From Lactobacillaceae bacterium AF64-9pH9TA (GTDB lineage: Bacteria; Bacillota; Bacilli; Lactobacillales; Lactobacillaceae), in NCBI GenBank assembly GCA_027681045.1, contig JAQDCK010000008.1:1-18352 (forward strand): a stretch of DNA of 18,352 nucleotides, given 5' to 3'. Both the position numbers and the translations under genes were made by a program. How positions within the stretch are numbered: the stretch's first letter is position 1; the number at the start of each line of letters is the position of its first letter. Below, piece by piece: positions 3,165-18,352 of the stretch. Under the pieces are notes generated by a model. That model was not told where the DNA came from. It saw only the letters and a list, made by a program, of their open reading frames with translations, and did no database searches.

Positions 3165-3188
3165 AAAGTTATTAAGGAGTGAAAATCA

Positions 3189-3374: not shown

Positions 3375-3376
3375 GC

Positions 3377-3405: not shown

Positions 3406-3683
3406 GCCTTTTTTCCTCTCTCATTTCTTTTTATTCCTTCATTGTTTCACGCTAACTATTTTACATTTTGTGTAAAGTGTAAAATAGCTAAAATATTGTT
3501 ATATCAAGGACAACAGCTGTTATTTTCTTAACAGCTGCCATTTTTATCATTTAACTTTAAAACGCAATCACAAGCGATGGAGCCTGCTATTACAGCATTT
3601 CTCTTTACAGCTCTGTAAGCCTTTTTCTTCAATTTTTGTTCCACGGTCTCTTTTTAACCTATCCCCGGCCAAGTTATTCACAG
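3406..3683. other. Gene-free convergent interval with several inverted repeats
   Basis: No supportable ORF on either strand. It contains a 10-bp inverted repeat (3456-3465 with 3478-3487, arm CTATTTTACA), inside which TTACA-TTTTG-TGTAA forms a smaller dyad. It also has a hairpin at 3514-3537 and a TTACAG-CT-CTGTAA dyad (3605-3618). The interval lies between converging transcription units, so operator-like dyads here serve no visible gene; an untranslated RNA or a decayed element is possible. Confidence 0.5.
3514..3545 (+). terminator. Orphan terminator-like hairpin
   Basis: A perfect 9-bp stem CAGCTGTTA (3514-3522) with its complement (3529-3537) and a 6-base loop, then CCATTTTT. It is about 110 bases beyond a complete terminator, with no gene between, so it may end a small RNA or be a backup. 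Confidence 0.45.
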
Positions 3684-3719
3684 GCAAAAAATAAGAGCCG
3701 CCCTAGAGCAGCTCTTATT
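3684..3719 (-). terminator. Terminator of pepT
   Basis: Minus-strand stem AATAAGAGC (3711-3719) pairing with 3690-3698, extended by inner GC pairs and followed by TTTTTGCC. Confidence 0.85.
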
Positions 3720-3741
3720 CTACAGTTATTCTCTTCTTGTC

Positions 3742-4980
3742 TTACTTGTTCCGTTCAGCTTGCAGTTCAGCCATCTTGATCATGACGTCGACAGCCTTCC
3801 ACATTGATTCCAGAACCGTGTATTCGTAGCGGCCGTGCATGTTTTCTTCCCCGGCAAAGAGGTTCGGGCATGGCAGACCCATGTAAGTCAGTTGTGACCC
3901 GTCCGTGCCCCCTCTAACTGGTTCTTCATTGATTTCAGTTAAGCCGCAAGCTCTGTAGGCATCCCGGGCCAGGTCAATGATTTCCATGTGCTTAGCCAGT
4001 TCATCAGCCATGTTATAGTACTGGTCCCACATCTTCAGCGTGATTCTGTCCCCGTACTTGGCGTTGAGTTCAGCCACCTTTTCCTTGACCAGGTTCTTCC
4101 GGGCTTCCAGGCCGTCGCGTTTGAAGTCACGGATGATGTAGGCCAGGTGGGCGTTGTCAACCGTACCAGAGAAGTCCATCAAATGGTAGAAACCTTCTTC
4201 GCCTTCAGTCTTTTCTGGTACTTCGTCTTGCGGCAAGGAGTTCTGGAAGTCGATCCCGACTTGAATGGCGTTGATCATCTGCCCCTTGGCTACAGCCGGG
4301 TGGACGTTAACCCCTTGAATATCCAGTTCAAACTGAGCAGCTGAGAAGGTTCCCCAGTCCAGCTTGCCCGGGCCTTCCCCGTCAACCGTGAAGGCAAAAG
4401 CAGCGTTGAAGTCTTCCACGTCAAAGTGCTGAGCACCAGTGCCGATTTCTTCATCTGGCGTGAAGCCCAGGCGGATTTCCCCGTGCTTGATTTCCGGGTG
4501 AGCCAGGAGGTATTCAGCAAAGGTGACCAGTTCGGCATCCCCGCACTTGTCGTCCCCGCCCAAAAGGGTGTCACCGGAAGCAGAGATAATGGTCTGTCCC
4601 TTGTACTTCTTCAAGTTCGGGAAGACGGCCGGGTCCAGGTAAAATTCGCTGTCGCCCAATTGGATCTTGCTTTCCCCGTCGTAGTTTTCAGTAATCTGCG
4701 GCTTAACGTTTTCTGAATTGAAGTCAGCCGTGTCGCAGTGGGCCAAGAAGCCCATAACCGGCACATCCCAGTCAACGTTGGAAGGAATAGTCGCGATGAC
4801 CGTACCAGCCTTTTCATTGTAGTGAACGTCACTTAAGCCCAGTTCTTCCAGTTCCTTCATGATGACCATTTGGTAGTCCACTTCTCTTTGGGTGGATGGG
4901 AAGCGGTCAACATGTTCATCTGACCGGGAGTTGATCTTGACGTACTTCAAAAATCTTGGCAACAAAGTTGGGTATTCCAT
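3742..4980 (-). CDS. pepT: Peptidase T (tripeptide aminopeptidase)
   Basis: 412 residues, normal for the M20B di-zinc family; it releases the N-terminal residue of tripeptides in the cytoplasm and feeds amino acid supply from milk or peptone peptides. Visible motifs: LAHCDTAD with zinc ligand His81 and Asp83; LLGGDDKCGDAE with bridging Asp143; GFTPDEEIGTGA with catalytic Glu177/Glu178; TVDGEG with Asp200; HPAVAKGQMINA in the dimerisation domain; RGGTDGSQLTYMGLPCPN and MHGRYEY with zinc ligand His382. KCGD replaces the commoner KAGV after the bridging Asp, a mild variation. GGAG seven bases before the ATG sets the start. It is last in the operon trmK-nif3-pepT, 40 bases after nif3 with no terminator between. 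Confidence 0.96.
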   Translation of the reverse strand: MEYPTLLPRFLKYVKINSRSDEHVDRFPSTQREVDYQMVIMKELEELGLSDVHYNEKAGTVIATIPSNVDWDVPVMGFLAHCDTADFNSENVKPQITENYDGESKIQLGDSEFYLDPAVFPNLKKYKGQTIISASGDTLLGGDDKCGDAELVTFAEYLLAHPEIKHGEIRLGFTPDEEIGTGAQHFDVEDFNAAFAFTVDGEGPGKLDWGTFSAAQFELDIQGVNVHPAVAKGQMINAIQVGIDFQNSLPQDEVPEKTEGEEGFYHLMDFSGTVDNAHLAYIIRDFKRDGLEARKNLVKEKVAELNAKYGDRITLKMWDQYYNMADELAKHMEIIDLARDAYRACGLTEINEEPVRGGTDGSQLTYMGLPCPNLFAGEENMHGRYEYTVLESMWKAVDVMIKMAELQAERNK

Positions 4981-5020
4981 CTTTTTCTCCTTTTTCTTTA
5001 CATAAACAAAAATATTTCAC

Positions 5021-5821
5021 TTACTCAAAAATATTCTGGAAGGGATCGGTTGATTCAGCGCTGATCATGCACTCTACGCTCCAGCCCTCTTCCTTCTGCC
5101 AGGCTCTAAGGCGCTTGGCAGCTTCATACTTGAAGAGCTTCTCCGTGTAGTGGCCTGGATCAACTACTACCAAGCCTGACGAAATCATGTCATGGCCAGT
5201 GTGGTAGTAGACGTCACCGGTGATGTAGGCATCGCACTTGTCGGCTAAGGCCTGCTTCCAGAACTTGTTCCCGTCTCCGCAGACAAAGGCAACAGTTTCC
5301 ACCATCTTATCCTGGTCAGCGCAGATCAAGCGGACCAGGTCCACCCCCATCTTTTCCTTGACGTAGTGGGCAAAATCAATTGCCTTCATGGCTTCTGGCA
5401 GGCGGCCCTTGCGGCCAATGGCGATTCCGTCCTCGTCTGGGGCAAAGCCGGTTACGTCCAAGAGGCCAAGTTCTTCCGCCTGCCAGTCGCTTGACCCGTC
5501 TTGGGCCTTGTCAGAATTAGTATGAATGGAGTAAACGGTAATGCCGTTAGCGATAATCTTAGCGTACATGGCCTTTTGCGGGTCGCTGTAGTCCAGGTTG
5601 TTAACCGGACGGAAGATCAAGGGGTGGTGGCTGACGATGAGGTCAGCGCCTCGCTTGATGGCTTCATCAACCACGTTTGGCCGGACGTCTAAAGTCACCA
5701 GGATCTTGTGGACTGCTGCTTCAATGCTGCCGATCTGCAGGCCGACCGGGTCGCCGGCACTGGCGATACTTTCCGGGAAAGCTTCATTCAGTTTAGCTAC
5801 AATGTCTTTTACTTTAGTCAT
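5021..5821 (-). CDS. Nif3-like dinuclear metal-centre protein
   Basis: 266 residues from the ATG at 5821, which overlaps the preceding trmK stop as ATGACTAA; a GTG at 5830 would add three residues but has a worse position relative to GGGTGGGG. Nif3/YqfO-family proteins form toroidal hexamers with a two-metal site; they are often labelled GTP cyclohydrolase 1 type 2, a function not proven. Metal-ligand motifs are present: VSHHPLIF, SIHTNSDKAQDG (usual form HTNLD), CGDGNKFWKQAL, ITGDVYYHTGHDM and VVVDPGHYTE. Lactobacillales commonly place it directly after trmK, and the stop-start overlap suggests translational coupling. The large insert domain of longer homologues is absent. Confidence 0.9.
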   Translation of the reverse strand: MTKVKDIVAKLNEAFPESIASAGDPVGLQIGSIEAAVHKILVTLDVRPNVVDEAIKRGADLIVSHHPLIFRPVNNLDYSDPQKAMYAKIIANGITVYSIHTNSDKAQDGSSDWQAEELGLLDVTGFAPDEDGIAIGRKGRLPEAMKAIDFAHYVKEKMGVDLVRLICADQDKMVETVAFVCGDGNKFWKQALADKCDAYITGDVYYHTGHDMISSGLVVVDPGHYTEKLFKYEAAKRLRAWQKEEGWSVECMISAESTDPFQNIFE

Positions 5822-6506
5822 TTTCCCCACCCAATTCTGTCTTGATCATAGCCAGCAGGTCTTCGACTTCCTTGATCCGGGTCAAGTCCTTTTCCCGGGC
5901 CTTGTTAAGGTTAGCCAGGAGCTTTTGGTAGTAGGCTTCCTGTCCCTGCCACTTTTTATAAAAGACTTCGGTCTTGTTCTTCAAGAGCAAGGGGCCAAAT
6001 TCCTGCTCGCGGACAGTCAATTCGTGAACTTCGCTAGTTAAGCGGGCCTTGATCAGCTCATAGATGTGGCCTGCTTCATAGACGATGTCTTCAGCGACGA
6101 TCTCGTACTTGTTGGCCATCAGCCAGCGGCGGACGGTGTTTTCCCCAATATTGGCTTCAAGGACCAGAGTTGGGTAGTAAACGCCCCGGGAGGCGGCTTC
6201 AGAGAGCAGGTTGACCATCAATTTGCCGCCCATGCCGGCGATGACGACCGTGTCGATTTGGTCGCTTTCCTTAATGGTTTCCAGGCCTGAACCCAGGCGG
6301 GTTTCAATCTGGTCAGAAAGTCCCGCGGCGGCGATGTCCGTTTTCGCGTTCTCTAAGGGGCCAGCCGCGACGTCACTGGCGATAGCGTGGCTGATCTTAC
6401 CGCTCTCTACCAAGAGGATCGGCAGGTAGGCGTGGTCGGTGCCGATATCGGCCAGGCGGCTATCTGGATCAACCATTTCGGCAAGTCTGTTAAGTCTTAA
6501 ATTCAT
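5814..6506 (-). CDS. trmK: tRNA (adenine(22)-N1)-methyltransferase TrmK
   Basis: 230 residues, usual family length. It transfers methyl from S-adenosylmethionine to N1 of A22 in tRNA. The Rossmann-type SAM motif I reads LADIGTDHAYLPI (about 18-30), followed by AIASDVAAGPLENA with the acidic ribose contact and VVIAGMGGKLM (motif IV region). LVLEANIGENTVRRWL is also typical. A C-terminal helical hairpin (about 165-225), rich in charged residues, is the coiled-coil-like domain of the family. GGAG about ten bases before the ATG sets the start. It is the first gene of the trmK-nif3-pepT operon. The rpoD gene often found upstream in Firmicutes is absent; a divergent NUDIX gene is there instead. Confidence 0.94.
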   Translation of the reverse strand: MNLRLNRLAEMVDPDSRLADIGTDHAYLPILLVESGKISHAIASDVAAGPLENAKTDIAAAGLSDQIETRLGSGLETIKESDQIDTVVIAGMGGKLMVNLLSEAASRGVYYPTLVLEANIGENTVRRWLMANKYEIVAEDIVYEAGHIYELIKARLTSEVHELTVREQEFGPLLLKNKTEVFYKKWQGQEAYYQKLLANLNKAREKDLTRIKEVEDLLAMIKTELGGEND

Positions 6507-6535
6507 TAGTAAAACGCTCCTTTATCCAAAAGTAA

Positions 6536-6544
6536 ATTCTATCA
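6536..6544 (-). promoter_or_regulatory. Extended -10 promoter of the trmK-nif3-pepT operon
   Basis: Minus strand TGA followed by TAGAAT; no good -35. It lies about 30 bases before trmK and is divergent from the NUDIX promoter. Confidence 0.45.
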
Positions 6545-6592
6545 TATGCCAGCCGGCAAAAGACAGTTTCTGCAAAAAAATAATCCACGTGC

Positions 6593-6598
6593 TATAAT
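6593..6598 (+). promoter_or_regulatory. -10 box of the NUDIX-M23 pair
   Basis: A perfect TATAAT with a weak CTGCAA at 17 bases. Transcription near 6605 excludes the longer reading frame that begins upstream at 6546. Confidence 0.55.
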
Positions 6599-6650
6599 TA
6601 GTTGTAGTTTTGTCAACTTTTTGAATGACAGGAGGAAAAGAGATAGGGAA

Positions 6651-7091
6651 ATGGACCGGACGGAGCCTACTACTTTAACTAATATGTGCATGATCGTGGA
6701 CAAAGACCGGGTTCTGACGATCGACCGGGAGGACCCGGTTTGGCCAGGCCTGGCTTTTCCAGGCGGCCATATTGAAAAGCATGAGTCATTTCATGATTCA
6801 GTCATTCGCGAGGTCAAGGAAGAGACCAACCTGGACATTGTCAGTCCCCGCCTGGTCGGCTTCAAGCAGTTTTTTGACAAGCTGGACCGGCGTTACCTGG
6901 TCTTCTTCTACCGGGCCGACAATTTTTCAGGAAGCCTCCACGCTTCAAGAGAAGGCAAACTGGAATGGGTCAAGATCAGTGACTTGCCAAAGCGGCAGTT
7001 GGCCTACAACTTTGACCGGGACCTGGAAGTCTTTTTAAAGAATGACCTTGATGAGCATGTATTGTTGGACAAGAAGGACTTTTTATATTAA
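6651..7091 (+). CDS. NUDIX hydrolase, MutT/MutX-like
   Basis: 146 residues from the ATG at 6651. An in-frame ATG at 6546 lies before the promoter and gives a non-homologous extension, so I reject it. AGGAGG at 6630-6635 is unusually far (15 bases) from this ATG; AGGG just before it is very close, so initiation may be modest. The NUDIX box GGHIEKHESFHDSVIREVKE continuing to ETNL fits Gx5Ex7REUxEE, with Asn in place of the last Gly. The start TNMCMIVDKDRVL and LAFPGGH match the 8-oxo-dGTP diphosphatase (MutX) group, which hydrolyses damaged or non-canonical nucleotides in the cytoplasm. The actual substrate is unproven. Its stop overlaps the next start (TAATG), so the pair is coupled. Confidence 0.88.
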   Translation: MDRTEPTTLTNMCMIVDKDRVLTIDREDPVWPGLAFPGGHIEKHESFHDSVIREVKEETNLDIVSPRLVGFKQFFDKLDRRYLVFFYRADNFSGSLHASREGKLEWVKISDLPKRQLAYNFDRDLEVFLKNDLDEHVLLDKKDFLY

Positions 7092-7918
7092 TGAGCAAGA
7101 AAAAGAAAAATAATAAGAAGAGCAAGCAGATTTGGGGCGGAGTCGTGACGGTGGCACTTTTTGCTGCCCTCTTCGCTTTCGTAGGCGTGTATATCAATAC
7201 TTATCCGGTAGCTAAAGACGTTAAGCTGGTCGCCACCCAGCCTAAGGCCTTGAAAGCCAAGAAGACGGTGGCTGAAAAGGACATCTGGGGCTATCCATTC
7301 GCCAAGTGCTACACCAAGAAGATCAAGTACCTGTCCGGCCAGCGCTACGGGAAGACCGATGTCTGCCGGCGAGTCTACCCGAAGAAGTCCTACTTCCATG
7401 ACGGCTGGGACTTTGGCTGGAGCGAGGTTGGCAACAAGGCGGCTGTTTTGGCTATTCACCCGGGGACGGTGAAGAAAGTTGCCTACTTCACGGGTCTGGG
7501 CTGGTATATCTGGGTCGTTTCTCCAGACGGCTATGTTGAAGTCTACCAGGAAGGTTTCGCCAACCGGTCAGACATTACGGTTAAGGCCGGTCAGAAGGTC
7601 AAGCTGGGCGAAAAGCTCGGCCGGCTGACTGACTCCCACCTGCACCTGGGGATCACTAAGACCAGCGCTGACTACATCAGCAAGCATGGTCACCCATACA
7701 AGAACTACTGGCGGGACAACGGCACCTGGCTGAACCCGATGAAGGTGATTACTGAAAGCTTGCAGCTGCAAGCAGATGTTAAGGAATACAACGCTAAGGC
7801 AGCCAACTACAATGCCAAGGCTACCAGCTACAACGAAAAGCTGGCGGCTAAGAAGAAGAAGCTAAAGGCGGAAGAAAGCAAGCACCCTTACCACTACTTG
7901 AAGTCATTTATCAAATAG
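7091..7918 (+). CDS. Membrane-anchored M23 (LytM-type) peptidase
   Basis: 275 residues. A basic N-terminus and one transmembrane helix (about 14-35) without a cleavage site suggest an anchor with the rest outside the cell. The M23 domain spans about 95-190: FHDGWDF gives zinc ligands His103 and Asp107 (HxxxD), and SHLHLGI gives catalytic His183 and zinc ligand His185 (HxH). The set is complete, so an active peptidoglycan endopeptidase is likely. Cys73 and Cys92 could form a disulphide. Residues 231-265 are a lysine-rich helical tail with repeated YNAKA units, plausibly a coiled coil or wall-binding segment. Its ATG overlaps the NUDIX stop by one base, and a strong terminator follows. Confidence 0.85.
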   Translation: MSKKKKNNKKSKQIWGGVVTVALFAALFAFVGVYINTYPVAKDVKLVATQPKALKAKKTVAEKDIWGYPFAKCYTKKIKYLSGQRYGKTDVCRRVYPKKSYFHDGWDFGWSEVGNKAAVLAIHPGTVKKVAYFTGLGWYIWVVSPDGYVEVYQEGFANRSDITVKAGQKVKLGEKLGRLTDSHLHLGITKTSADYISKHGHPYKNYWRDNGTWLNPMKVITESLQLQADVKEYNAKAANYNAKATSYNEKLAAKKKKLKAEESKHPYHYLKSFIK

Positions 7919-7926
7919 ACAGAGAG

Positions 7927-7961
7927 AAAAAGACGACTGAAATTAATCAGCCGTCTTTTTT
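7927..7961. terminator. Bidirectional terminator between the M23 and ada genes
   Basis: AAAAGACG-A-CTGA pairs with TCAG-C-CGTCTTTT around AATTAA. A T-tract follows on the plus strand, and TTTTTCTCTC on the minus strand. Confidence 0.88.
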
Positions 7962-7965
7962 GTGC

Positions 7966-8825
7966 TTACTGTTCTTTACTGCTCTTTTCCAGGTCTAATA
8001 GATAACGTTTAGCGGCAAGGCCAGCGACATAGCCGGTAAGGCTGCCGGCAGCCCCGATGACCCGGTGGCAAGGAATTAAGATCAAGATCGGGTTGCAATT
8101 GTTGGCCAGGCCGATTGCCCGGCTGGCATTCTTGTCGCCGGTCATTTCAGCCACCTCCTGGTAGCTTCTGGTCTCTCCGTAAGGAATCTGCTGGAGCTGA
8201 TGCCAGACTTTTTGCTGGAAGCTGGTGCCTTCTGGCGAAAGGGGCAGGTCGAATTTTTGTCTTTGGCCGGCAAAGTATTCCTTCAGCTCTCTCATGCAGG
8301 CCTTAACCAAGTCGTCGGAAGGATCATTTGGGATAATCCGGTCAGCCGGGACCTGGTCAGTTGCTTGGCCAGCCTTTTTCTCAAGATAATTTTCTGGTTC
8401 AACGCAGAGGATGGCGTCTTGGGAAGCAACAATTCTGAGCGGCCCGATTGGCGTGTCCATGACGGCCCGGGAGATGTTTTGGGCAAAAAGCTGCCGGTAC
8501 TTAGCTGGCGACATCCCGGACAGCTTGCGGAAGTGGGCATAAAAGCTGGAGAGGTTAGTATAGCCGGAATCAGCGGCAACATCGAAAATGCTGGCTCCGG
8601 CCTGCAGGGCTTGCTTAGCGGCAGCGATTCTCACCTGGATCAAGTATTCTGCCGGCTTCATGTCGTAGTAACGCTTGAAGACCAGGGACATTTGTTTTCT
8701 AGTTGCGCCCAGCTCTTTCAGCTGTTGGTTAAGCTCTTGCCGGTCACTGAAATAGTTGTCAAAGACGGCCTTGCTTCAGCCAGGTCGCAAGTTTGGACTG
8801 CCTGCCACATTTCATTGTCATCCAT
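7966..8825 (-). pseudogene. ada: Ada-like AraC-HTH / O6-methylguanine-DNA methyltransferase, frameshifted
   Basis: The intended start is the ATG at 8825, preceded by GGAGGAGAAGAGCT. It reads MDDNEMWQAVQTCDLAEA, then shifts and stops after about 17 unrelated codons. Restoring one A at 8771-8772 (GCAAGG to GCAAAGG) continues as KAVFDNYFSDRQELNQQLKE and joins the long downstream frame, for about 286 residues. Domains: AraC-type HTH (about 5-120, including ASIFDVAADSGYTNLSSFYA) and methyltransferase (about 125-286) with active-site PCHRVIG and the GTSFQQKVWHQLQQIPYGET DNA-contact region. The phosphotriester Zn domain of E. coli Ada is absent. The family removes alkyl groups from O6-guanine onto its cysteine. 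The internal ATG at 8691 lacks a ribosome site and would cut the HTH. A sequencing error is possible. Confidence 0.85.
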
Positions 8826-8922
8826 AGCTCTTCTCCTCCATTCTCTAGTAGCTTCTACATGAGACTTTAACATATTCAGCATGTGTTTGCTTCCAAAAAA
8901 GGCAGATTCAATTGTTAGGACG

Positions 8923-8956
8923 AAAAAAAACGGCTGACCCAAGTCAGTCGTTTTTT
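8923..8956 (-). terminator. Terminator of the flavoprotein reductase gene
   Basis: Minus-strand stem AAAACGACTGAC (paired with 8927-8938) around a short TTGG loop, followed by eight T residues. The arms pair with one A-C mismatch. There is also a T-run on the plus strand, so it may work both ways. Confidence 0.85.
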
Positions 8957-8968
8957 AACTCTATGCAA

Positions 8969-10699
8969 TTACTTCTCAATGAATTTGGCTGCTTCCAGGC
9001 CGGCAATGCGGCCGGAGTTTACGGCAAAGCCCATGGTGTTGCCTGGCAGGGTAAAGTTGTAGCTGTCAGCGTAGATGGTGTTAGCATCTGATCCCGCGCT
9101 GTAGAGGCCTGGAATAACTTGCTCTTCATCATCCAGGACTTGGCAGTTTTCATCAATCTTAACGCCGCCAACCGTGCCATAAGCACCGCTGTAGAACTTG
9201 CCAACCAGGTAGCCGCCTTCCCCGGTCAATTTGTGAAGGTAGTCAAGATTTTTGAAAAATTCCTCGTCCTTGCCATGGTCACAGTAGCTGTTGTAGTCGT
9301 CAATGGTCTTTTGCAGTTTATCGGCTGGGATGTTCAGCTTTTCAGCTAATTCGCCGACGCTGTCAGCCGTAATAATGGCCTCATATCCATTCTCTTCCGC
9401 CTTCTTGATCACCGGATCCAGCATCTTAAAGCCAGCAGCTGGGTGGACAATGTCCATGATGTCTGGACCATCTTCCTGATACTTTTGCAAAATCGCCCGG
9501 TCCATGATGACATAAGCGTAATGGCCTGGCTGCAGGAACATGGCATTGCCGGAAAAAGTAGTGTTGCCCAGCATCCCTTCATCCATAAAACGGTCACCCT
9601 TCTGGTTGATCATCAGGTTTGGCTGACGCAGCACCCCGTCAGCGACCATGTATTCCAGGTTGTGCGGCAAAATGTAGATCATTTCAACCGTGTCGCCGTA
9701 CTTTTGGGCACCGGCATCCCACATCATCTCCAAGCCTTCACCATTGATACCCGGCACGTTGAAGGTAAAGAAGTCCTTGTCCAGGTTGAAGCCTAAGCGG
9801 TCCTTCAGCATTTCAGCGTTTGACCCGTAGCCGCCAGTAGCCACTACAACGGCTTTAGCGTGGACAGTGTACTTGACCGCTTCGCTTTCAGCGATTAAGC
9901 CAGTCACCTTGCCGTCTTCAGTCAAAAGCCCTTTAACTGGAGTTTCCAGGTAGAACTTAACGCCCAATTCTTCAGCCCGCTTGGTCAAGGCCTTGTTCAT
10001 GGCTGAGGCACAGCCTGGCCCGATCTTGCCGTCGCCTGGATCAACGATGTGCCAGGTGGCGTTGGATTCCTTGAAGTAGCGGAAAGCTCCGGCGAACTTG
10101 ACCCCCATGCCTTCCAGCCAGTCGATGGTTGAGGCGGACTGCTTGAAGTAGCGAGCGACCAGGCGGCCGTTAACCCGGTAGTGGGTGTATTCCATCTGGT
10201 TCTTCAAGGCTTCGGCCACTGAGATTTCATTGAAGTTGGCTTTTTGGATCTTGCTATTGATCCCCAGTGGCCCCATACCCATGTTGGCAGTCCCGCCAGT
10301 GATCTTTTCCTTTTCAAAAACCAGAACCTTGACGCCTTGTTCAGCGGCAGATACTGCTGCAGCTAAGCCAGCTGGTCCGGCGGCAACGATGGCCAGGTCA
10401 GTGGTCAATTCTTCACTGGTCTTGTCCTGGCTTTCCCCGCTGGCCTCCTGCAGGGCCTTTTTGACAGCGGTCATGATGGCATTGGAAGAAACCGTAGCGC
10501 CAGATACGGCATCGACATCGGTAGACTGGGCGGCGATGATTTCACTGGCGATTATGTCGTTGGCCTTAGACTGGTATTCCCCTGCTCCGACCAGGACTTC
10601 TACAGCACTGATCTTCCCGCCAGTAATGGTGGTAGCGACTTTAACTGGGCCGTGCAGGCCTTCTGCTTCAGTTTGGTACTTTCCGTCTTGATATGACAT
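8969..10699 (-). CDS. Flavoprotein reductase: FMN-binding domain plus FAD-binding fumarate-reductase-like domain
   Basis: 576 residues. Residues about 5-88 form an FMN-binding domain with DAVSGATVSS, which fits the ApbE flavinylation motif (covalent FMN on the Thr). A FAD-binding-2 domain follows, starting at about 104 with LAIVAAGPAGLAAAVSAAEQ and an EKEKITGGTANMG stretch; the first Gly of GxGxxG is Ala. The C-terminus ADSYNFTLPGNTMGFAVNSG and GRIAG is the family FAD contact. There is no signal peptide, so it is probably cytoplasmic. The RFxNExxxR segment carrying the catalytic Arg of fumarate reductases reads RFMDEGMLGN here, so fumarate is not assured; urocanate-, acrylate- or other enoate-type acceptors are possible. 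It is divergent from an AraC regulator. GGAG lies nine bases before the ATG. Confidence 0.87.
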   Translation of the reverse strand: MSYQDGKYQTEAEGLHGPVKVATTITGGKISAVEVLVGAGEYQSKANDIIASEIIAAQSTDVDAVSGATVSSNAIMTAVKKALQEASGESQDKTSEELTTDLAIVAAGPAGLAAAVSAAEQGVKVLVFEKEKITGGTANMGMGPLGINSKIQKANFNEISVAEALKNQMEYTHYRVNGRLVARYFKQSASTIDWLEGMGVKFAGAFRYFKESNATWHIVDPGDGKIGPGCASAMNKALTKRAEELGVKFYLETPVKGLLTEDGKVTGLIAESEAVKYTVHAKAVVVATGGYGSNAEMLKDRLGFNLDKDFFTFNVPGINGEGLEMMWDAGAQKYGDTVEMIYILPHNLEYMVADGVLRQPNLMINQKGDRFMDEGMLGNTTFSGNAMFLQPGHYAYVIMDRAILQKYQEDGPDIMDIVHPAAGFKMLDPVIKKAEENGYEAIITADSVGELAEKLNIPADKLQKTIDDYNSYCDHGKDEEFFKNLDYLHKLTGEGGYLVGKFYSGAYGTVGGVKIDENCQVLDDEEQVIPGLYSAGSDANTIYADSYNFTLPGNTMGFAVNSGRIAGLEAAKFIEK

Positions 10700-10739
10700 G
10701 GTATTTCTCCTTGCTTTCCTTACTTGTTTTCTTTAACCG

Positions 10740-10773
10740 CTTACATTGTATCGTGAAGAAAGTATAATAGTAA
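10740..10773. promoter_or_regulatory. Overlapping divergent promoters, reductase and AraC regulator
   Basis: Plus strand: CTTACA (10740-10745), 17 bases, TATAAT (10763-10768). Minus strand: -10 TACAAT (10745-10750) with a weak TTACTA 17 bases upstream (10768-10773). The two promoters occupy the same DNA, so polymerase or regulator binding for one should affect the other. Confidence 0.6.
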
Positions 10774-10827
10774 TTAAGCAAGGTATCTAAATCATTAGCA
10801 AAAAGTAACTATTTAGAGGAGCAAAAA

Positions 10828-11700
10828 ATGTTTAAAGAGCTGGAAAACGTTGACAGAGTTGAGATCAGCCATGATTCTTTTATTGAGGAAAATAACAGCA
10901 AAAATAGCTCAGACTTTCACTTGGAGTTGGTTGAAGTCCTCATCCCTTGTCACGCGGTCTTAAACAAGCTGCCCTGTCAGCTGGCAGCCTATGATATCGT
11001 TATCTCAAGGAAGTTTCCGCGGCTGGCTTTTTTCAACAAAGAACCTTTTAGTCTTAGACTGGTCAGTCTGGACTTTAAGCGGCAGGAGGTGCTCGACATG
11101 CTCACCATGGCCAATAACGGGCTGGTGCACGACATCTTTAAGGACCTGGACCAGGCGGAGAGCTACGTGCACTATACCGGCCTGGACAAGATGATTTGCC
11201 ATGAGGGGCTGAACTTCTGCCAGCGAATCGCTGAGGCAGGTGAAGACGGCTATTTCGTGGATTATGAATTGTCTCTGGCCTGCGCGGGCTTTCTGACAGA
11301 GCTTTCCAGGCACTACCACGCCAGAGTCCGGCTGGATTCTTCACGCTTTCCCAGCAGCAATGTCCATTATGCTAATCCGATGACCAGGACGGGGATGATC
11401 ATGAATTACCTGGTGGCTAATATTCAAGACGTGACTTTGGAAAAAATGGCTGTCCACTTCGGCTATCAGCCTAAGTATTTGTCCCGCTTGATCCGGCAGC
11501 TTTTTGACCAGACTTTCAGCCAGCTGAAGATGGAGACCCGGGTGTCGATCAGCAAGTCGCTCTTGGAGCTAACGACCAAGAGCATCGAGGAGATCAGCGA
11601 GATCGTCGGCTACCCTAGCGTCAGCAACTATTACCGAGCCTTTAAACTGGCCACCGGACTGACGCCGAGCGAGTATAGGAAGATCCGGCGGGAGGGATGA
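10828..11700 (+). CDS. AraC-family transcriptional regulator
   Basis: 290 residues. The N-terminal about 180 residues are an unassigned sensor domain. The C-terminal DNA-binding domain (about 190-288) has two HTH units: DVTLEKMAVHFGYQPKYLSR, then SIEEISEIVGYPSVSNYYRA and FKLATGLTPSEYRKIRR, the standard AraC signature. AGAGGAG six bases before the ATG sets the start. The leader can form a 7-bp pairing, TCTAAAT (10786-10792) with ATTTAGA (10811-10817), which would overlap the ribosome site. The divergent arrangement suggests it controls the neighbouring flavoprotein reductase and itself. The inducer is unknown, though the reductase's substrate is a natural guess. Confidence 0.9.
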   Translation: MFKELENVDRVEISHDSFIEENNSKNSSDFHLELVEVLIPCHAVLNKLPCQLAAYDIVISRKFPRLAFFNKEPFSLRLVSLDFKRQEVLDMLTMANNGLVHDIFKDLDQAESYVHYTGLDKMICHEGLNFCQRIAEAGEDGYFVDYELSLACAGFLTELSRHYHARVRLDSSRFPSSNVHYANPMTRTGMIMNYLVANIQDVTLEKMAVHFGYQPKYLSRLIRQLFDQTFSQLKMETRVSISKSLLELTTKSIEEISEIVGYPSVSNYYRAFKLATGLTPSEYRKIRREG

Positions 11701-11708
11701 TATAGAGC

Positions 11709-11743
11709 AAAAAGAAGTCTAGCAAAAAGCTAGGCTTCTTTCT
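11709..11743 (+). terminator. Terminator of the AraC regulator gene
   Basis: AAAGAAG-T-CTAGC pairs with GCTAG-G-CTTCTTT around AAAAA, ending in a T-rich run. Confidence 0.85.
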
Positions 11744-11801
11744 ATGGTATATTCTCAAAAAGTCAGCGGACCAGCTGCTAACAAGCGGATGGCTTTGGCT
11801 G

Positions 11802-11966
11802 TTATCCAGGCAAGTCCTTTTGCATCCGCCGCTGACGGGCAATTTCCTCCCGGAATGCTTGGTTTTCGTCGTTCTCCAATCTACGCAAATCCTACTCTCT
11901 GCCTCGGATAGCTACGCTCTCTCGCACCCGCCAATCAGGGTCAGCGACAAGCGATTTAGACTCCGT
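11802..11966 (-). pseudogene. C-terminal remnant of a HEAT-like repeat protein
   Basis: On the minus strand one frame reads TESKSLVADPDWRVRESVAI, RGRE, an in-frame TAG, then DLRRLENDENQAFREEIARQ, RRMQKDLPG and TAA. The pattern LVxDPDWRVRxxVAxxG...LxxLxND is that of the short HEAT-like (variant leucine-rich) repeats common in Firmicutes hypothetical proteins. An in-frame TAA precedes it (11967-11969) and there is no start, so only the last one to two repeats remain and they carry a stop. It lies just beyond the helicase, same strand. It was either part of the same module or a resident gene cut by its arrival. Confidence 0.6.
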
Positions 11967-11997
11967 TTAGCTTCTTGAGTTTTCAACTGCTTCGCCT

Positions 11998-14900
11998 TTA
12001 TTTATAGTTCCGAGTGCCTTTGCATTTAGGAAAGTCTGAGCATCCCCAGAACTTAGCCCCGTCTGATCTTCTACTTCTCATTTTCATCTGCTTGCCGCAA
12101 ATTGGACAGGCGGGGATATTGTTTTCTTGCCCTGCATTCTGCTGTACCTTGGGACTAACTTCATCCGCTCCTTGAACAACTTGTTCTTCAGCTTGATTCT
12201 CAATTTGAGTATTGTCGTCGTAGAGATCAGGATGCTTTTGCTGGTACTTCTTCATTTCAGCAAAGGTCGTATCAGCAACCTTCTTGCCCTTGTACAGTGA
12301 TAAGTCACCAATCACATAGAACTCTTTCTTTGCCCGGGTTGCCGCGACATTCATCATATTTGGCTCTTGAACCGCCCAACTTGCAGCACCCGCGCTATCT
12401 TTATCAGCACCTAAAACCATGAAGACGATTGGTGCTTCTTTACCTTGGAAGGTATGAATCGTACCAACATTTGTTGCTTTCCCTTTATTATATCTGGTAA
12501 AACCAATTTTTCTCAGTTCCTTAGCAAGTTCGCTAGCCACGTGCTTGAACGGTGAAATGACGTAGACAATATCTGGCTTGTCTTTATCTAATATATCTGG
12601 GTTCTCCTTGGCCATTTCCAGGATCTTTTGCTTAAGAAATTCCCCTTGTTCCTTAACGTATTTGTCCCTTGCCTTGCCCTTGATGTCATACCAGCCAGTT
12701 TTACCGTCTGATTTATTCCCTTGAACCATCAAACCGCCATATGACAGTTCATTGGAAATGTTGAACATCGGATACTTGCATCTTCTGTGAACCCACAGAG
12801 GAATCCCGATCCAATCAGTCTTCTCTTTGTCCTTATAGAAGCCATAGTGGCTGGCATTGTCAACCAGAGTTTGAACTGAAGCTGATTCGGAGAGATACTT
12901 CTCGCCAACTTTAAAGTGTTTACCTAGCATTGCCAAGATGCCTGGTTCCAGGCCTAAAACTGGCTTAATCTGTGACGGGTCGCCGACGACCATGACGTGG
13001 CGGCTGCGGAAGATTGCCCCGACTGCAGCTTGCGGCAGAGCTTGCCCCGCTTCATCGACAAACAAGTGCCCTAAAGACTGTGACTTGATGTTCTTGAACA
13101 TGGATCCAAAACTTGCAAAAGTTGAGCTGATTACCGGGATCGTAAAGTTAATCCACTCCCAGGCATAGCCGATCAACTCTGGGCTCTTTTCCAAAGCCTT
13201 CTTTTGATCTTCCCAGATCATCTTCGCGGAGATAAGATTCCCCTTATTTTCAAAAAGGAACTGCTTACGTACCCGCAAAGCAGCAACGAACAGCTTAGTT
13301 TGCTCAATCCGGTACTCTTCATCAAACCATGGACTGGAGAGTTGCAAAGACTCGTAGTCAGCGTTCATATCCAGCGGCTTGCCTGAGTAAGCAGAAATCT
13401 CCGATTTTAAGCTAGCGATACTTTGTTGCTGCTCAGCATCCCAAGCAGTAAAAGCTGCCTGCTTAGCTTGAATTTCAGCATCGGAGCTTTCAATTGTCCG
13501 AGTATATTGCTTACTTTCCCGCTTTAAGCCATCTTCTTTAACCTTTAAATCAGCCAGCTGCAGATTTAGATCTGCCCCTTCTTGGTTCAAGGAGCTGATC
13601 TGCTCTTCATATTCTTTTTCTTCCGCGCTTGGCGCAAAGATGGAGAATAATCCTTTCTTTGGTTTCTTTGCTTCGGCCGCCTTAATTGCAAGTTCGTTAC
13701 GCTTAAGCTTGTCTGCCAGCTCATCTCGCTGGTCACTAAGGTCCCTCAGCTTTTCCTCCAGTTGAGGTTGCTTGCTTTGCGCTTCAGAAAGCGCGGCTTT
13801 AATATCGGTAATCTCGCTATCCAAACTCTGCTGGCGATTCTGTTTTTCAGCATCGTAGTTACTGCTCAGCTGGTCAAGTTGATTATATTTTTGGGCAAAA
13901 GTTTCTGCTTTATCACGCAGTGCATGAACTTTTTGATATTGATCAGCAAAATCCTTATATGCCTGGGTGTCTGGAATGTAATCGTCTTTTAAGTACTGGT
14001 ATACAGCACTTAAGTAGTCACAAATCTGCTTCATATTAGCTGATTTGCCACCCTCAAGTGAGAACAAGCCCCAGAACTTGTCAGGATCTTCGTTTGCTTC
14101 TATATTCAGCTTAGCCTTGCCATTTTCCCACTCTGTCTTGACTTTGGAGTTGGAAAGCTCACGGAAATAATCAATATCCTTAAACTTACTGTCTAAGTTC
14201 TCGACTAGCGGCAGTTCATTGACAATGTTTTGAACCGCACCGTTGTTTGAACTAGCAACAACAATACTATTTTCGGTGATTTTGTCTGGAAGAACGCTGA
14301 TTTCCAAACCGTTGCGTTTGATCGCCTTGTCATCTCCAAGACCAACGATATCTCTAGCTTGCTCGACGACTAGTTCAGCAAAAATATCTTTCAGCAGCGT
14401 CGTCTTACCTGTGCCCGGAGGGCCATTGACACTCTGAATCTGTTGCTTATTAGCTTCAGTTGCCATGGTTGCTATGTTAACTGCGGTCTGCTGCATGAAG
14501 GATAAGGCATATTTTGTCTCGCTCGGAAATCTGCCCAAAGGGTAGTTCTTAGGTTCCAAAATCTTTTTGAAAGCGTCAGGATTGAAGCTTGGAGAATCCT
14601 TCTTGGAGTCCAGATTAATTCGTTCACCGGTTTGGTTGCCAAGCAAATATTGGCGCAAATTTTCACTATCAACGCCCTTGGCATATTCCAAGTCATTGAT
14701 GAAGAACGAATGCAAGTTAGTAGCATCAGTCTCCAAGTTACGGACTACTTGGAAGCGGCTTGTTTCCTTCTTAAAGCCACATTTAGCAAATACTTTTGCT
14801 ACAGCTTCATTGAATTTTTCACTCTTTTGAGAGCTATCAGCCTCATTGGCTTCTTCAAAAATCTTTTTGAGCTTATCATCCGTCAAGTCTTGCTCTACTG

Positions 14901-15297
14901 CTTGGAACTCGGTTTCGTTTGGTACCTTTTGTTCCTTGAGAATGTAGCTGCTCTCAGTATAGAAAGTTTTCTTATCATCAAAGTTCAAATCTCTGTCAAA
15001 ATACAGGGCTAACGTGAACTTATTACCGTAGTTGATCGATTCTACTGGAGCTTTCAATCCATAAATTCTTCGCAAGAAGTCGACCACCTTGGTGAAGTCG
15101 AAAATGTCGAAGTAAAGAACCAGCCCACCATTCTCTCCGATCTTGTTCTTTTTTAATTGCTTTTGGAACAAGTCATAGTAGTCTGCTTGGTTCAAATCAT
15201 CGAATTTATACATCAACCTGTCCTTAAGATCAATGTCACCTTCTGAGAGGTGCTCAACCATGATCCAAGACTCGAGAATTTTCTCCTTATCAGCCAT
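11998..15297 (-). CDS. UPF1-like superfamily 1 helicase with coiled coil and zinc ribbon
   Basis: 1099 residues, intact, with GAGGAAA about nine bases before the ATG. Residues 1-260 are an unassigned N-terminal domain. The SF1 core is split: Walker A GPPGTGKT (292-299), then a long insert with a predicted coiled coil (about 450-640, rich in E/K/Q), then motif II VDEAGQ (747-752), motif III GDPSQIKPV (772-780), WVHRRC (motif IV region, Arg839), VGTIHTFQGKEAPIV (motif V, 944-958) and NVAATRAKKEF (motif VI, 983-993). DEAGQ and the motif order place it with the UPF1/DNA2 group, ATP-driven RNA or DNA translocases. The end is a topoisomerase-I-type four-Cys zinc ribbon (Cys1064, 1067, 1086, 1092: CPICGKQM, FWGCSDFPKC). 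Lower GC (about 40-48% in sampled lines) suggests transfer. Its target is unknown. Confidence 0.88.
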   Translation of the reverse strand: MADKEKILESWIMVEHLSEGDIDLKDRLMYKFDDLNQADYYDLFQKQLKKNKIGENGGLVLYFDIFDFTKVVDFLRRIYGLKAPVESINYGNKFTLALYFDRDLNFDDKKTFYTESSYILKEQKVPNETEFQAVEQDLTDDKLKKIFEEANEADSSQKSEKFNEAVAKVFAKCGFKKETSRFQVVRNLETDATNLHSFFINDLEYAKGVDSENLRQYLLGNQTGERINLDSKKDSPSFNPDAFKKILEPKNYPLGRFPSETKYALSFMQQTAVNIATMATEANKQQIQSVNGPPGTGKTTLLKDIFAELVVEQARDIVGLGDDKAIKRNGLEISVLPDKITENSIVVASSNNGAVQNIVNELPLVENLDSKFKDIDYFRELSNSKVKTEWENGKAKLNIEANEDPDKFWGLFSLEGGKSANMKQICDYLSAVYQYLKDDYIPDTQAYKDFADQYQKVHALRDKAETFAQKYNQLDQLSSNYDAEKQNRQQSLDSEITDIKAALSEAQSKQPQLEEKLRDLSDQRDELADKLKRNELAIKAAEAKKPKKGLFSIFAPSAEEKEYEEQISSLNQEGADLNLQLADLKVKEDGLKRESKQYTRTIESSDAEIQAKQAAFTAWDAEQQQSIASLKSEISAYSGKPLDMNADYESLQLSSPWFDEEYRIEQTKLFVAALRVRKQFLFENKGNLISAKMIWEDQKKALEKSPELIGYAWEWINFTIPVISSTFASFGSMFKNIKSQSLGHLFVDEAGQALPQAAVGAIFRSRHVMVVGDPSQIKPVLGLEPGILAMLGKHFKVGEKYLSESASVQTLVDNASHYGFYKDKEKTDWIGIPLWVHRRCKYPMFNISNELSYGGLMVQGNKSDGKTGWYDIKGKARDKYVKEQGEFLKQKILEMAKENPDILDKDKPDIVYVISPFKHVASELAKELRKIGFTRYNKGKATNVGTIHTFQGKEAPIVFMVLGADKDSAGAASWAVQEPNMMNVAATRAKKEFYVIGDLSLYKGKKVADTTFAEMKKYQQKHPDLYDDNTQIENQAEEQVVQGADEVSPKVQQNAGQENNIPACPICGKQMKMRSRRSDGAKFWGCSDFPKCKGTRNYK

Positions 15298-15317
15298 AGT
15301 TATCTTTCCTCATTAAT

Positions 15318-15384
15318 TTTATAGCAGTATGATTAATCAAAAAGAAATGAATATACTTAATCCGCTTCTTTTATGTCGCATAAA
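15318..15384 (-). promoter_or_regulatory. Helicase promoter with two palindromes
   Basis: Minus strand TGC followed by TATAAA (15318-15326) is an extended -10 about 20 bases before the ATG. A perfect palindrome TGATTAATCA (15330-15339) sits in the spacer, and TTTATG-TCG-CATAAA (15370-15384) lies further upstream. Both are plausible operators. Confidence 0.45.
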
Positions 15385-15471
15385 TCCAGCATTTTAGGTC
15401 ATGATGCTATCTTTAACATTGTCCTAGCTTTACTTTAAGGTTTTTCTGTTAAAAAAACAATATTAAATATC

Positions 15472-15507
15472 AAAAAATGACTCCGATATGATTACCGAAG
15501 TCATTTT
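15472..15507 (-). terminator. Terminator of the 74-residue membrane protein gene
   Basis: AAAATGACT (15474-15482) pairs with AGTCATTTT (15499-15507). On the minus strand the hairpin ends in a run of T. It separates this gene from the helicase promoter. Confidence 0.75.
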
Positions 15508-15529
15508 GGTAGGTTATCTACTAGTTCTT

Positions 15530-15754
15530 TTAGCTGGTCTTGCCTTGAACGCCCTTTAAGTAGCTGTTTTCAGCACGAAAGATACGGTTCTCACATTGAA
15601 GCCTGTCGAGTTCTGCCTTCAGCTCTTCTACCTCTAGATCCGTATGAATACTGTCTTTTGCTTTTTGGCGAAAGCGAAGAGTACACAGCACAAGCGCTGT
15701 AGCTGATAAAACCAAACTAATGGCGTTTAAAATGTACCTTACATTACTGCTCAT
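15530..15754 (-). CDS. Small membrane protein with a cytoplasmic or surface coiled coil
   Basis: 74 residues with GGAGAG about seven bases before the ATG, its own extended -10 promoter and its own terminator, so I regard it as real. Residues about 7-27 (YILNAISLVLSATALVLCTL) form one transmembrane helix. RFRQKAK follows as a positive-inside stop, then an acidic/heptad-like segment (about 40-68, LEVEELKAELDRLQCENRIF) reads as a coiled coil. The positive flank predicts that the coiled coil is inside the cell. I do not recognise a family. It lies between the GIY-YIG ATPase and the helicase, same strand, so it may be their membrane partner or an effector. A self-standing phage-holin-like or type I toxin-like peptide is the alternative. 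Confidence 0.65.
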   Translation of the reverse strand: MSSNVRYILNAISLVLSATALVLCTLRFRQKAKDSIHTDLEVEELKAELDRLQCENRIFRAENSYLKGVQGKTS

Positions 15755-15872
15755 CTTTTTTCTCTCCGTAACAAATAAAAAAGTATTCCATCTTGCTCAT
15801 GGTGAGATTACTAGGAAATTACCGGTCTTCAGACATCTACCTTTTAATCCTCAAAAAAGGCCATCGCGATCA

Positions 15873-15881
15873 ATTATATCA
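15873..15881 (-). promoter_or_regulatory. Extended -10 promoter of the 74-residue gene
   Basis: Minus strand TGA followed by perfect TATAAT, 118 bases before the ATG. This leaves a long leader that includes the 18-codon overlapping ORF and a TCGCGA palindrome. Confidence 0.5.
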
Positions 15882-15976
15882 AGACAGTCGCTATGAGGCA
15901 TTTATCACGCTTCTTCAGTTTTTCGCTCGTCACTCACTACCCCTTTGCCAAATTTCTGTATCTGACTAAAATAATA

Positions 15977-16039
15977 CTACAACAAGTGGCCAAAATGCAG
16001 CTTTGCCAATGACAGTATTTCACTTTTTATCACATTCAT
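15977..16039 (-). CDS. Possible 20-residue peptide
   Basis: MNVIKSEILSLAKLHFGHLL, with AAGGA four bases upstream. It has a hydrophobic, amphipathic-helix-like composition. No clear promoter or family; it could be chance or the tail of a decayed gene, since the same frame is open further upstream. Confidence 0.2.
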   Translation of the reverse strand: MNVIKSEILSLAKLHFGHLL

Positions 16040-16156
16040 GTTATCCTTGTCCCTCTCATATTTCTCGTCATGGAATGAGATGAAATGTGGCGTACCTAGC
16101 TTCAAAGGATAGCTGGATCTTCGCTGTCTTTGATTGCCACAACTTCCTAGTAGTAA

Positions 16157-16203
16157 CGAAAAAACGCGAAATTGGTTTAACCACCATTTTTCGCGTTTTT
16201 TAT
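16157..16203 (-). terminator. Terminator of the GIY-YIG ATPase gene
   Basis: A long stem AAAAACGCGAAA with its complement, enclosing an inner TGGT/ACCA hairpin. T-tracts on both sides allow bidirectional use. Confidence 0.88.
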
Positions 16204-16228
16204 GCGTTCAAATATCCGTAAGCAATCT

Positions 16229-18013
16229 TTACTCTACAACCCTGTCCTTGCCTGCTGCCTCTTCTAAAGCCTGCTGCAAGGCTGGGTCAACAGCGTGAAG
16301 GTACAAGCCGTGAACTCCCCGGGTTAAAAGAACATTCAGTTCGTTTGGCAATAGATCTTCCGCAAAGTTTTCCTTAGTCCCATCCGCGAAAGTACGATAT
16401 TGGACAGCATCTTTATTGCAGCTCTCTGCAGGGACATGGATGATTTTTCCATCCTTAAGTTTTACAGAGGGTCCAATTTCAACACCAACATAGTTGAGGT
16501 CAAAGCCTTGGACTGTGTAGGTTGAACCGATCTCACCAATTGTCACTGGCTGTTGAGCCCATGAAAGTTCCTTATAGCTAACGCCATCGTCAGTTTTTCT
16601 AGGCTTTTCGACTTGGTAATTCCACGGCATTTTCCAGTCGCCTTCGCTGACTTGCCAGTATTCAGAGCCATCCTTTGGACTGCTCTTGCTGGAATATTCC
16701 CAATCATAAGTAGCAACCATCCGGCTTATGCCATTATTTTGGTCATCGTTCTTTTCTTGGATGGCCTTCTGCATATCTTGGGGCTTCTTGAAGACTTTAA
16801 TTTCATACTTGCCATCTTCTGGAACCTCGTCAATCAAACCCTTTTTTATGACATTATTCAACCATTCAATAGTCTGAGGCTCAGCATCGATCCGCATTTG
16901 GTTGTGCAGATGGATAATGTTCTCTTCTCCAATGCTATCTTTAAGCTCTTGAAATGAATTGCCTTGCCAAACTTGGGTTTTAGAAAGCACCTGCTTTTTA
17001 TCGTAAATGGCGACAACAATTTTTGCACGCTGGCGAATATCTTCCAGCATGTTGGCAGTATCTGAAGTATAGCCTTGATTCTTTTGAGTTCTGAGCAGGT
17101 GTGCCTCATCAACAAATGCCACGTCTACCGGCTCATCCGGAGAATAATGATTGATAAAGCTAGCTGGTTTGAGGACACTCTTTGCATCCCCGATACCCAA
17201 TTTTTTAGCAATTTGCAGGTAAACCTTAAGTTGCTCATCATGATTGACCATCATTGCCAAGGAAATCTTATTGCCATCTTTGCTAGTCAATTTGGCCAAG
17301 TCATAGTAAACATTACTCATCAAGACGGTTTTACCAGCACCCGCATCCCCAGTAACCAAGATCAGCTTGCCAGTTTCATTCTTGTCCAAAGCCTCTTGAA
17401 CGCGCTGAAGAATCAGATCCTTAGCCTTGTTCTGTTCCTGCGTCAGTTTATTGAAAGGCGAAGCTTTAAAAATCGCTGAATTCTCAATTTCTTTTCTGGC
17501 TGGAAAAAGATACTTATAGTCTTTCTTAGCTGCTAATGTATCCCAGATCTTGTTGAAGATCGGCACAAATTCATCTTCGGTGTAATACATCCGCTGGGCG
17601 TTCTCACGACGATTGTTTAAGTGAGATACAGCGTCAACACTACTCAAATACTGCATCATCCGGTTTTCGATGTCCAGGGTGAGTGACTTGTTGAAGTGCT
17701 TATGACCGATCACAAACATGTGGGCATTATTTGCGTTCTTCAAAACCTGCCAGTCCGTTCTGCGCTCCGCATCCCCATTCAAGTGTTCCAGAGTCCGCCG
17801 CTGAATATCAATGGTTTCACCGACATAAACAGTATAGTCGTGGCGGTGATTGCTTTGCTTGCCAGGTTGGTCAATGATATAGACAGTCGGATAATCGATC
17901 AAATATTCTTGATCAGCCTTATCTGCATACGCTTGACGAATCTCTTCATTGATTTGCTTGGCATTATCGTCGCTATACTGAGTTTCGTAAATTATTGGTT
18001 CGTCAACTTTCAT
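16229..18013 (-). CDS. GIY-YIG nuclease fused to a DUF2075-type P-loop ATPase
   Basis: 594 residues from the ATG at 18013, which has GGATGGAG four bases upstream; a GTG at 18031 has no ribosome site. Residues about 40-120 form a GIY-YIG domain: TVYII (43-47) for GIY, YVGETIDIQRR (63-73) with the catalytic Arg, His77, and IENRM with candidate metal ligand Glu116. Residues about 190-590 form a DUF2075 SF1-like ATPase: GDAGAGKT (Lys228), VAFVDEAH (302-305 DEAH), HNQMRID, TYTVQGFD (about 498-505), and LLTRGVHGLYLHA with the Arg of motif VI (about 565). Nuclease plus ATP motor in one chain fits ATP-controlled DNA cleavage, as in restriction-like defence. It has its own terminator and low GC (about 37% in a sampled line). 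Function is inferred. Confidence 0.85.
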   Translation of the reverse strand: MKVDEPIIYETQYSDDNAKQINEEIRQAYADKADQEYLIDYPTVYIIDQPGKQSNHRHDYTVYVGETIDIQRRTLEHLNGDAERRTDWQVLKNANNAHMFVIGHKHFNKSLTLDIENRMMQYLSSVDAVSHLNNRRENAQRMYYTEDEFVPIFNKIWDTLAAKKDYKYLFPARKEIENSAIFKASPFNKLTQEQNKAKDLILQRVQEALDKNETGKLILVTGDAGAGKTVLMSNVYYDLAKLTSKDGNKISLAMMVNHDEQLKVYLQIAKKLGIGDAKSVLKPASFINHYSPDEPVDVAFVDEAHLLRTQKNQGYTSDTANMLEDIRQRAKIVVAIYDKKQVLSKTQVWQGNSFQELKDSIGEENIIHLHNQMRIDAEPQTIEWLNNVIKKGLIDEVPEDGKYEIKVFKKPQDMQKAIQEKNDDQNNGISRMVATYDWEYSSKSSPKDGSEYWQVSEGDWKMPWNYQVEKPRKTDDGVSYKELSWAQQPVTIGEIGSTYTVQGFDLNYVGVEIGPSVKLKDGKIIHVPAESCNKDAVQYRTFADGTKENFAEDLLPNELNVLLTRGVHGLYLHAVDPALQQALEEAAGKDRVVE

Positions 18014-18048
18014 TTTGCTCCATCCTATCACGTTGTGTATATTCCCAG

Positions 18049-18054
18049 TTTATA
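18049..18054 (-). promoter_or_regulatory. Possible -10 box of the GIY-YIG ATPase gene
   Basis: TATAAA on the minus strand, about 36 bases before the ATG, with no clear -35. The insertion sequence begins only 56 bases upstream of it. Confidence 0.35.
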
Positions 18055-18109
18055 CTTTAAAGAGCTTTTGCTAAAAAGGCAATATCTAGGGCGAAAAAGC
18101 TATTAAAAC

Positions 18110-18352
18110 GTAAGCACCCAATAGCGTGGTATCTATCAACCCTCGGGCAATAGTCATATACTGTTCTTAACAATTGAATACGGAGGAACACGACTGAACA
18201 TCCAATCGTACCGCTCGAGCTGCCGAAGGGCAAACTCAGAACTAGGAATAAGCTTCCAAAGAACAGACTTGTCCTTAATCTGAAGTCCAATGGAGTTGAG
18301 CTGTCATTTTACAGTGATGCCACTAACGAGCTTATGCTCGAAGTCGTAGACA
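18110..18352 (+). mobile_element. Left end of an IS66-family insertion sequence (partial)
   Basis: GTAAGCACCC at 18110 matches the GTAAGCG/CCC-like terminal repeat of IS66-family elements. The preceding eight bases, ATTAAAAC (18102-18109), would be one half of the family's 8-bp target duplication. About 70 bases in, a GGAGG ribosome site is followed by an open frame. The other end is outside the window, so completeness and the duplication cannot be checked. Confidence 0.6.
18190..18352 (+). CDS. Possible first accessory ORF of the IS66-like element (partial)
   Basis: From about 18190 to the right edge one frame is open and reads TEHPIVPLELPKGKLRTRNK, then a stretch ending GVELSFYSDATNELMLEVVD. 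The pattern of a short hydrophobic strand, G, F and a helix resembles the small TnpA-type ORF of IS66 elements. GGAGG lies at 18182-18186, but no ATG, GTG or TTG follows in frame at a proper distance; the first available codon is ACG at 18190. Either a rare or mutated start is used, or the ORF is decayed. Confidence 0.4.

Follow-up and report, generated by a model that had tools for sequence, protein, structure and literature searches.

A probable variable insertion site in a Lactobacillaceae genome with two large, apparently separately acquired genes: a UPF1-like helicase and a GIY-YIG/Schlafen helicase

The window analysed here, the whole 18,352-nucleotide stretch of contig JAQDCK010000008.1 (Lactobacillaceae bacterium AF64-9pH9TA, assembly GCA_027681045.1), carries in its right-hand part two large genes, one for a UPF1-like superfamily 1 (SF1) helicase and one for a protein that joins a GIY-YIG nuclease domain to a Schlafen group 3 helicase (DUF2075; GIY-Schlafen below), with a small gene for a 74-residue protein between them. 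The reading that we prefer, at a probability of roughly 0.64, is that this block is a variable insertion site, reaching from an AraC-type regulator gene to an insertion sequence (IS) element of IS66 type, which holds two independently acquired, stand-alone genes that are perhaps defensive. Its basis is observed and consists of the domains and motifs of the two proteins, their separate terminators and a patchy, unlinked distribution. An original prediction from the window had treated the GIY-Schlafen protein, the 74-residue protein and the helicase as one system, and this claim is not supported.

Linkage was surveyed across 397 Lactobacillaceae genomes. Ten of them match the helicase, a count that takes in a 96-residue remnant (G135) and a distant match (G305), and some GIY-Schlafen match, in many cases confined to the helicase part, occurs in 327; at least 98 genomes have a near-full-length GIY-Schlafen match (query start at or before residue 65 and end at or after 589, counted among the matches listed). 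Both genes are present in three genomes (G042, G248 and G305), or 3 of the 10 with the helicase, which is the chance level (Fisher p 0.71), and they share a contig only in G042, where they lie 18 kb apart and the helicase frame contains a stop. By the co-occurrence check that the original prediction itself proposed, the one-system inference fails. Among the best 80 of 444 loci confirmed in genome_contigs, with flanks of up to 10 kb and often shorter, a GIY-Schlafen relative was near the helicase in two (L011 and L032), on the opposite strand both times.

The site itself varies between close species. The flanking DNA is matched at all in 12 of 75 genomes of the genus, and three close genomes (G379, G443 and G440) were compared with the window. 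All four share the left flank up to 11680–11703, at the end of the AraC gene (whole or broken in the three relatives), and then diverge. Past this point the three genomes carry, in one, a membrane gene, rpoD-like genes and dnaG, in another an hsdS-like fragment and in a third transporter genes and, at a greater distance, a type I restriction set (site gene names by eye). The helicase is absent from all three, save for a weak 92-residue match in G440, and the GIY-Schlafen gene of G379 lies on another contig, where nucleotide similarity within the region compared is limited to window positions 16239–18086. Because co-occurrence is at chance, the sites differ and G379 has its GIY-Schlafen gene elsewhere without a helicase, the two large genes look separately acquired. 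As a separate matter, three consecutive rpoD-like sigma factor genes (374–389 codons, by eye) stand before dnaG in G379 (L168:12369-15845), which is an unusual triplication.

Table 1. Features of the block and its borders (window positions; parts of the helicase in residues).
Feature	Position	Strand	Remarks
AraC-type regulator	10828..11700	+	left edge of variable site
HEAT-like peptide remnant	11802..11957	-	broken by in-frame TAG
UPF1-like SF1 helicase, 1099 aa	11998..15297	-	SF1 motifs, coiled-coil hairpin, zinc ribbon
Helicase, N-terminal region	residues 1-250		
Helicase, Walker A	residue 292		
Helicase, motif Ia	residue 348		
Helicase, coiled-coil hairpin	residues 446-635		
Helicase, Walker B	residue 748		DEAGQ
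Helicase, motif VI	residue 985		
Helicase, zinc ribbon	residues 1064-1098		C4
Terminator-like hairpin (intrinsic)	15474..15507	-	3' of 74-aa gene; T tract; fold z -5.2
74-aa protein	15530..15754	-	one membrane helix and coiled coil (by eye)
Terminator-like hairpin (intrinsic)	16159..16201	-	3' of GIY-Schlafen gene; T tract; fold z -5.5
GIY-YIG nuclease fused to Schlafen group 3 helicase (DUF2075)	16229..18013	-	594 aa from ATG
Probable left end of IS66-type element	18110..18352	+	starts GTAAGC; runs out of window

Both large genes are real and appear intact. The predicted 1099-residue UPF1-like helicase with a zinc ribbon is confirmed by its SF1 motifs and four C-terminal cysteines (Table 1), and it belongs to a very large family (of 7997 candidates scored, 6276 match at E<=0.001). 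The nearest named systems are Mokosh type II and CoCoNuT; published descriptions give both of them nucleases, and none was found in these helicases. MkoC of Mokosh II is the best PADLOC model for the window helicase (256 bits, residues 260–1019 on profile positions 244–963) and also matches nine diverse relatives at 218–251 bits, so that a Mokosh II protein in a known system, accompanied by a passenger, has to be considered; we regard this as rather improbable. The matches of the window helicase and the nine relatives all end at profile position 945–963 of 1136, which leaves the last 170–190 or so positions unmatched. A PLD-like domain is given for both Mokosh I and II (PMC10952713), and the unmatched profile end would correspond to it. 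No PLD domain was detected in the window helicase by the Pfam scan, and no HxKxxxxD motif in that protein or in the tails of 115 listed homologues; one locus protein, L064, does carry such a motif in its tail. The window protein shares the UPF1/RNA-helicase-like core of MkoC and differs in having a zinc ribbon where a PLD domain or motif would be expected, its relatives having a zinc ribbon or another tail. CnuH of CoCoNuT types II and III is described as an SF1 helicase of UPF1 type in which a large helical, coiled-coil insertion follows Walker A (PMC11090510), and in our model the window helicase has an insertion of the same kind. Its neighbours within the window, which ends at 18352, are the AraC, 74-aa and GIY-Schlafen genes and not a McrB-type GTPase gene (CnuB). 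No recurrent partner gene was seen in 53 mapped helicase loci, in a survey that included no search aimed at McrB in relatives.

Variation within the family was observed in several places. Three relatives at 57–58% identity (P0051, P0089 and P0095) have no coiled-coil hairpin, and two tandem zinc ribbons are present in P0089 and, from the alignment, apparently also in P0095. A tail pattern shared by 71 of the 115 listed homologues resembles a cold-shock/OB fold and is left unnamed (Pfam CSD E 0.066, below the cut-off). A distant relative occurs on 622 plasmid records, 537 of them from Klebsiella (about 29% identity in the listed Klebsiella rows), and lies near a traG gene in the one Klebsiella plasmid record examined. 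A 169-codon frame in G440 (G440:C1:269632-269904, L185) is weakly similar to helicase residues 93–184 (27%, E 2.6e-4) and may represent a stand-alone N-terminal domain or a chance resemblance.

The GIY-Schlafen protein bears out the claimed GIY-YIG/DUF2075 fusion in its domains and in homologues of equal length. Its open reading frame spans 16229–18031 from a GTG (600 aa); translation probably starts from the ATG at 18013, which is preceded by GGATGGAG and gives 594 aa, the length also found in homologues P0121, P0122, P0124 and P0125. Pfam SLFN-g3_helicase covers residues 222–582 at 290.7 bits (curated cut-off 24), and GIY-YIG scores 21.3, slightly below its cut-off of 22.6; Y51, Y69, R79 and E122, which we take to be the conserved Tyr, Tyr, Arg and Glu of GIY-YIG nucleases, are invariant in 32 sequences. 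The protein resembles Schlafen group 3 helicases and has a 55-bit match to AbiO in its helicase part only (residues 196–443 on profile positions 179–383 of 468), and it differs from both in the added N-terminal GIY-YIG domain. Among 29 loci (the 20 best-scoring in Lactobacillaceae and nine others, not a random sample), a MazG-like gene adjoins GIY-Schlafen in 12, in one of them on the opposite strand; these GIY-Schlafen proteins have the same architecture as the window protein, and no MazG-like gene is present in the window or in the 10 loci of this set most similar to it. On a Lactiplantibacillus plantarum plasmid (NZ_CP028230.1; L132:4339-9734), genes for a NUDIX protein, a PLD-DEAD-DUF3427 helicase, a MazG-like protein and GIY-Schlafen follow in a row, and then two hypothetical genes and a DUF2357 gene (a domain named for McrC); this stretch looks like a layered restriction island.

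Of the four same-strand units predicted, the two large genes and the 74-residue frame stand, the latter with its membrane helix and coiled coil recognized by eye. The fourth, the HEAT-like remnant, is weak, since it is broken by a stop and, read with X at that stop, scores below the Pfam HEAT cut-off (E 0.026, 15.2 bits against 23.5). Homologues of the 74-aa protein form 37 clusters including the window's own, one of which is named Lactobacillus delbrueckii, and a search of six genomes, run without a positive control, found nothing; the gene is lineage-restricted, occurring in a narrow range of sequences, and not a widespread partner. Its clusters span 76–100% identity, which is much variation for a small, narrowly distributed gene. 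Each gene had also been credited with its own promoter and terminator. Strong hairpins do lie 3' of the GIY-Schlafen and 74-aa genes, in support of separate transcription, and separate promoters are unsupported because promoter-like matches (14) stay near the shuffle mean (10.7, sd 3.2). An operon was rejected because of gaps of 232 and 474 bases together with the strong terminators.

The expected lower GC content was found relative to the left side (0.427 for 11702–18100 against 0.498 for 1–11700), and at third codon positions the two large genes have GC values of 0.478 and 0.469, while two genes on the flank reach 0.633 and 0.649. An IS end at the border had likewise been proposed, and an IS66-type stretch probably begins at about 18110, where GTAAGC is presumably the terminal motif; from this point, 243 query bases match, at 91.6% identity, part of a Ligilactobacillus salivarius plasmid whose annotation there is a hypothetical protein and which directly precedes IS66 tnpB and transposase genes, and it is because of this adjacency that we regard the sequence as a probable left end. 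A composite transposon was considered and rejected, with no inverted repeats found, no more than three two-copy direct repeats of 16–30 bases in 11600–18352, and no tRNA or Rfam match. A phage-borne module was also rejected, as single-protein scans of viral_contigs, which reach close relatives only, gave no relative. Five phage records match the helicase, none covering 80% of the query, and two match GIY-Schlafen, one covering 80%.

The defence context was examined through neighbouring genes. No gene family directly adjoins the helicase in more than 2 of the 53 mapped loci (which include the window, and of which L019 and L157 are the same place), and the commonest neighbour cluster, which includes ABC ATPase-like proteins (by eye), occurs in 12 loci at shifting positions. 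Single loci are defence-like: GajA is directly beside a helicase relative in Streptococcus phocae, as is PDC-S01 in a Lachnospiraceae metagenome-assembled genome, AbiU is the second gene over in Bacillus australimaris, and a Priestia plasmid has SAVED, ThiF and nucleotidyltransferase genes nearby (CBASS-like by our reading). Direct PADLOC scanning of 10 chosen neighbours matched a family at E<=1e-15 in four and none in six. At the same threshold, 136 helicase-neighbour proteins (137 of 177 genes from loci L001–L018 and L064, minus one helicase fragment) yielded 106 families against 16 from 133 control proteins, the latter from 20 control regions of Lactobacillaceae genomes and the helicase loci mostly from other phyla or families.

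Several observations weigh against our preferred reading, and most concern its defensive part. The PADLOC excess is inflated because overlapping models of single proteins drive the count, one GajA protein yielding 48 of the 106 families and one PDC-S01 protein seven; at E<=1e-100, GajA, AbiU, PDC-S01, PDC-S02 and PDC-S04 remain among the families listed, one protein each, or 5 of 136 against 1 of 133 (a DndA/SspA lookalike) in the control, a difference that is not significant (Fisher p 0.21). GIY-Schlafen neighbours show no excess (13 families from 149 proteins, the first 150 of 188 genes minus one GIY fragment, against 16 from the 133 control proteins). The helicase lies among transporter/permease-like genes (by eye) in three related Lactobacillaceae loci, L156, L157 and L161, and the literature consulted yielded no phage experiment on either protein. 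A general role in RNA or DNA maintenance is conceivable. That both are general nucleic-acid helicases gained by transfer, with no defence role, is favoured by the neighbourhood results and by the work of UPF1- and Schlafen-type helicases in RNA and DNA metabolism; it is unlikely given that the genes occur patchily (in 10 and about 98 of the 397 genomes), that several copies have stops or split frames, that some are on plasmids and that single loci adjoin GajA, AbiU, CBASS-like or restriction genes. With a protein-level excess at p 0.21 and ordinary neighbours elsewhere, the defence context of the helicase is suggestive at individual loci and falls short of a rule. Linkage in the window and beyond is the other point of tension: the two genes are adjacent on the same strand with similar GC and third-position GC, in Alkalihalobacillus macyae and Bacillus inaquosorum GIY-Schlafen and a MazG-like gene stand next to the helicase, and the pair lies within 18 kb in two Bacillaceae genomes and one Lactobacillaceae genome. 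A single multi-gene defence system including the 74-aa membrane protein is still very improbable, and we reject it on co-occurrence and synteny, since co-occurrence is at chance, G379 has GIY-Schlafen alone and elsewhere, the genes are on opposite strands where adjacent and separately terminated here, and the 74-aa gene is narrowly distributed. A defence role is possible for each large gene separately, as both are accessory and some relatives adjoin known defence genes. As a side observation, the three related genomes of L156, L157 and L161 (G089, G001 and G342) have an intact or broken helicase near the same transporter/permease set, though its place relative to that set takes two forms.

Under the preferred reading of two independent genes, defence is our leading guess for both, and we infer its nature, the substrates and the order of steps as follows. 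The helicase, MkoC/CnuH-like, of UPF1 type and without a recognizable nuclease, would most likely load on exposed RNA or single-stranded DNA arising during invasion and then move along it with ATP, while the coiled-coil arm and zinc ribbon may sense or hold the substrate; the invader would be blocked by remodelling or by recruitment of another factor. The GIY-YIG endonuclease, driven by its Schlafen group 3 helicase, may act as a restriction-like cutter, alone here and often beside a MazG-like nucleotide pyrophosphohydrolase in other lineages. Eukaryotic RNA surveillance involves UPF1-type and Schlafen helicases. If a lone UPF1-type helicase protects cells, it would be a bacterial parallel to this process that can be tested with a single gene, and the nuclease-free helicase is the better candidate of the two for a new immune protein. 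We tentatively suggest, as a possibility short of an expectation, two undescribed immune families. One would be a UPF1-like coiled-coil helicase that lacks a nuclease, acts by itself in sensing or remodelling invader RNA and can exchange its C-terminal tail (zinc ribbon, another tail or no tail); the other would be a GIY-YIG/Schlafen helicase that usually partners with a MazG-like nucleotide pyrophosphohydrolase. No description of either protein was found in the literature consulted, which lay outside subscription papers and included PMC13092281, PMC10952713 and PMC11090510.

Elsewhere in the window, two adjoining and very similar signal-peptidase-I-like genes (1855–2421 and 2484–3119, by eye) form a tandem duplication, and both align to a single place in G379.
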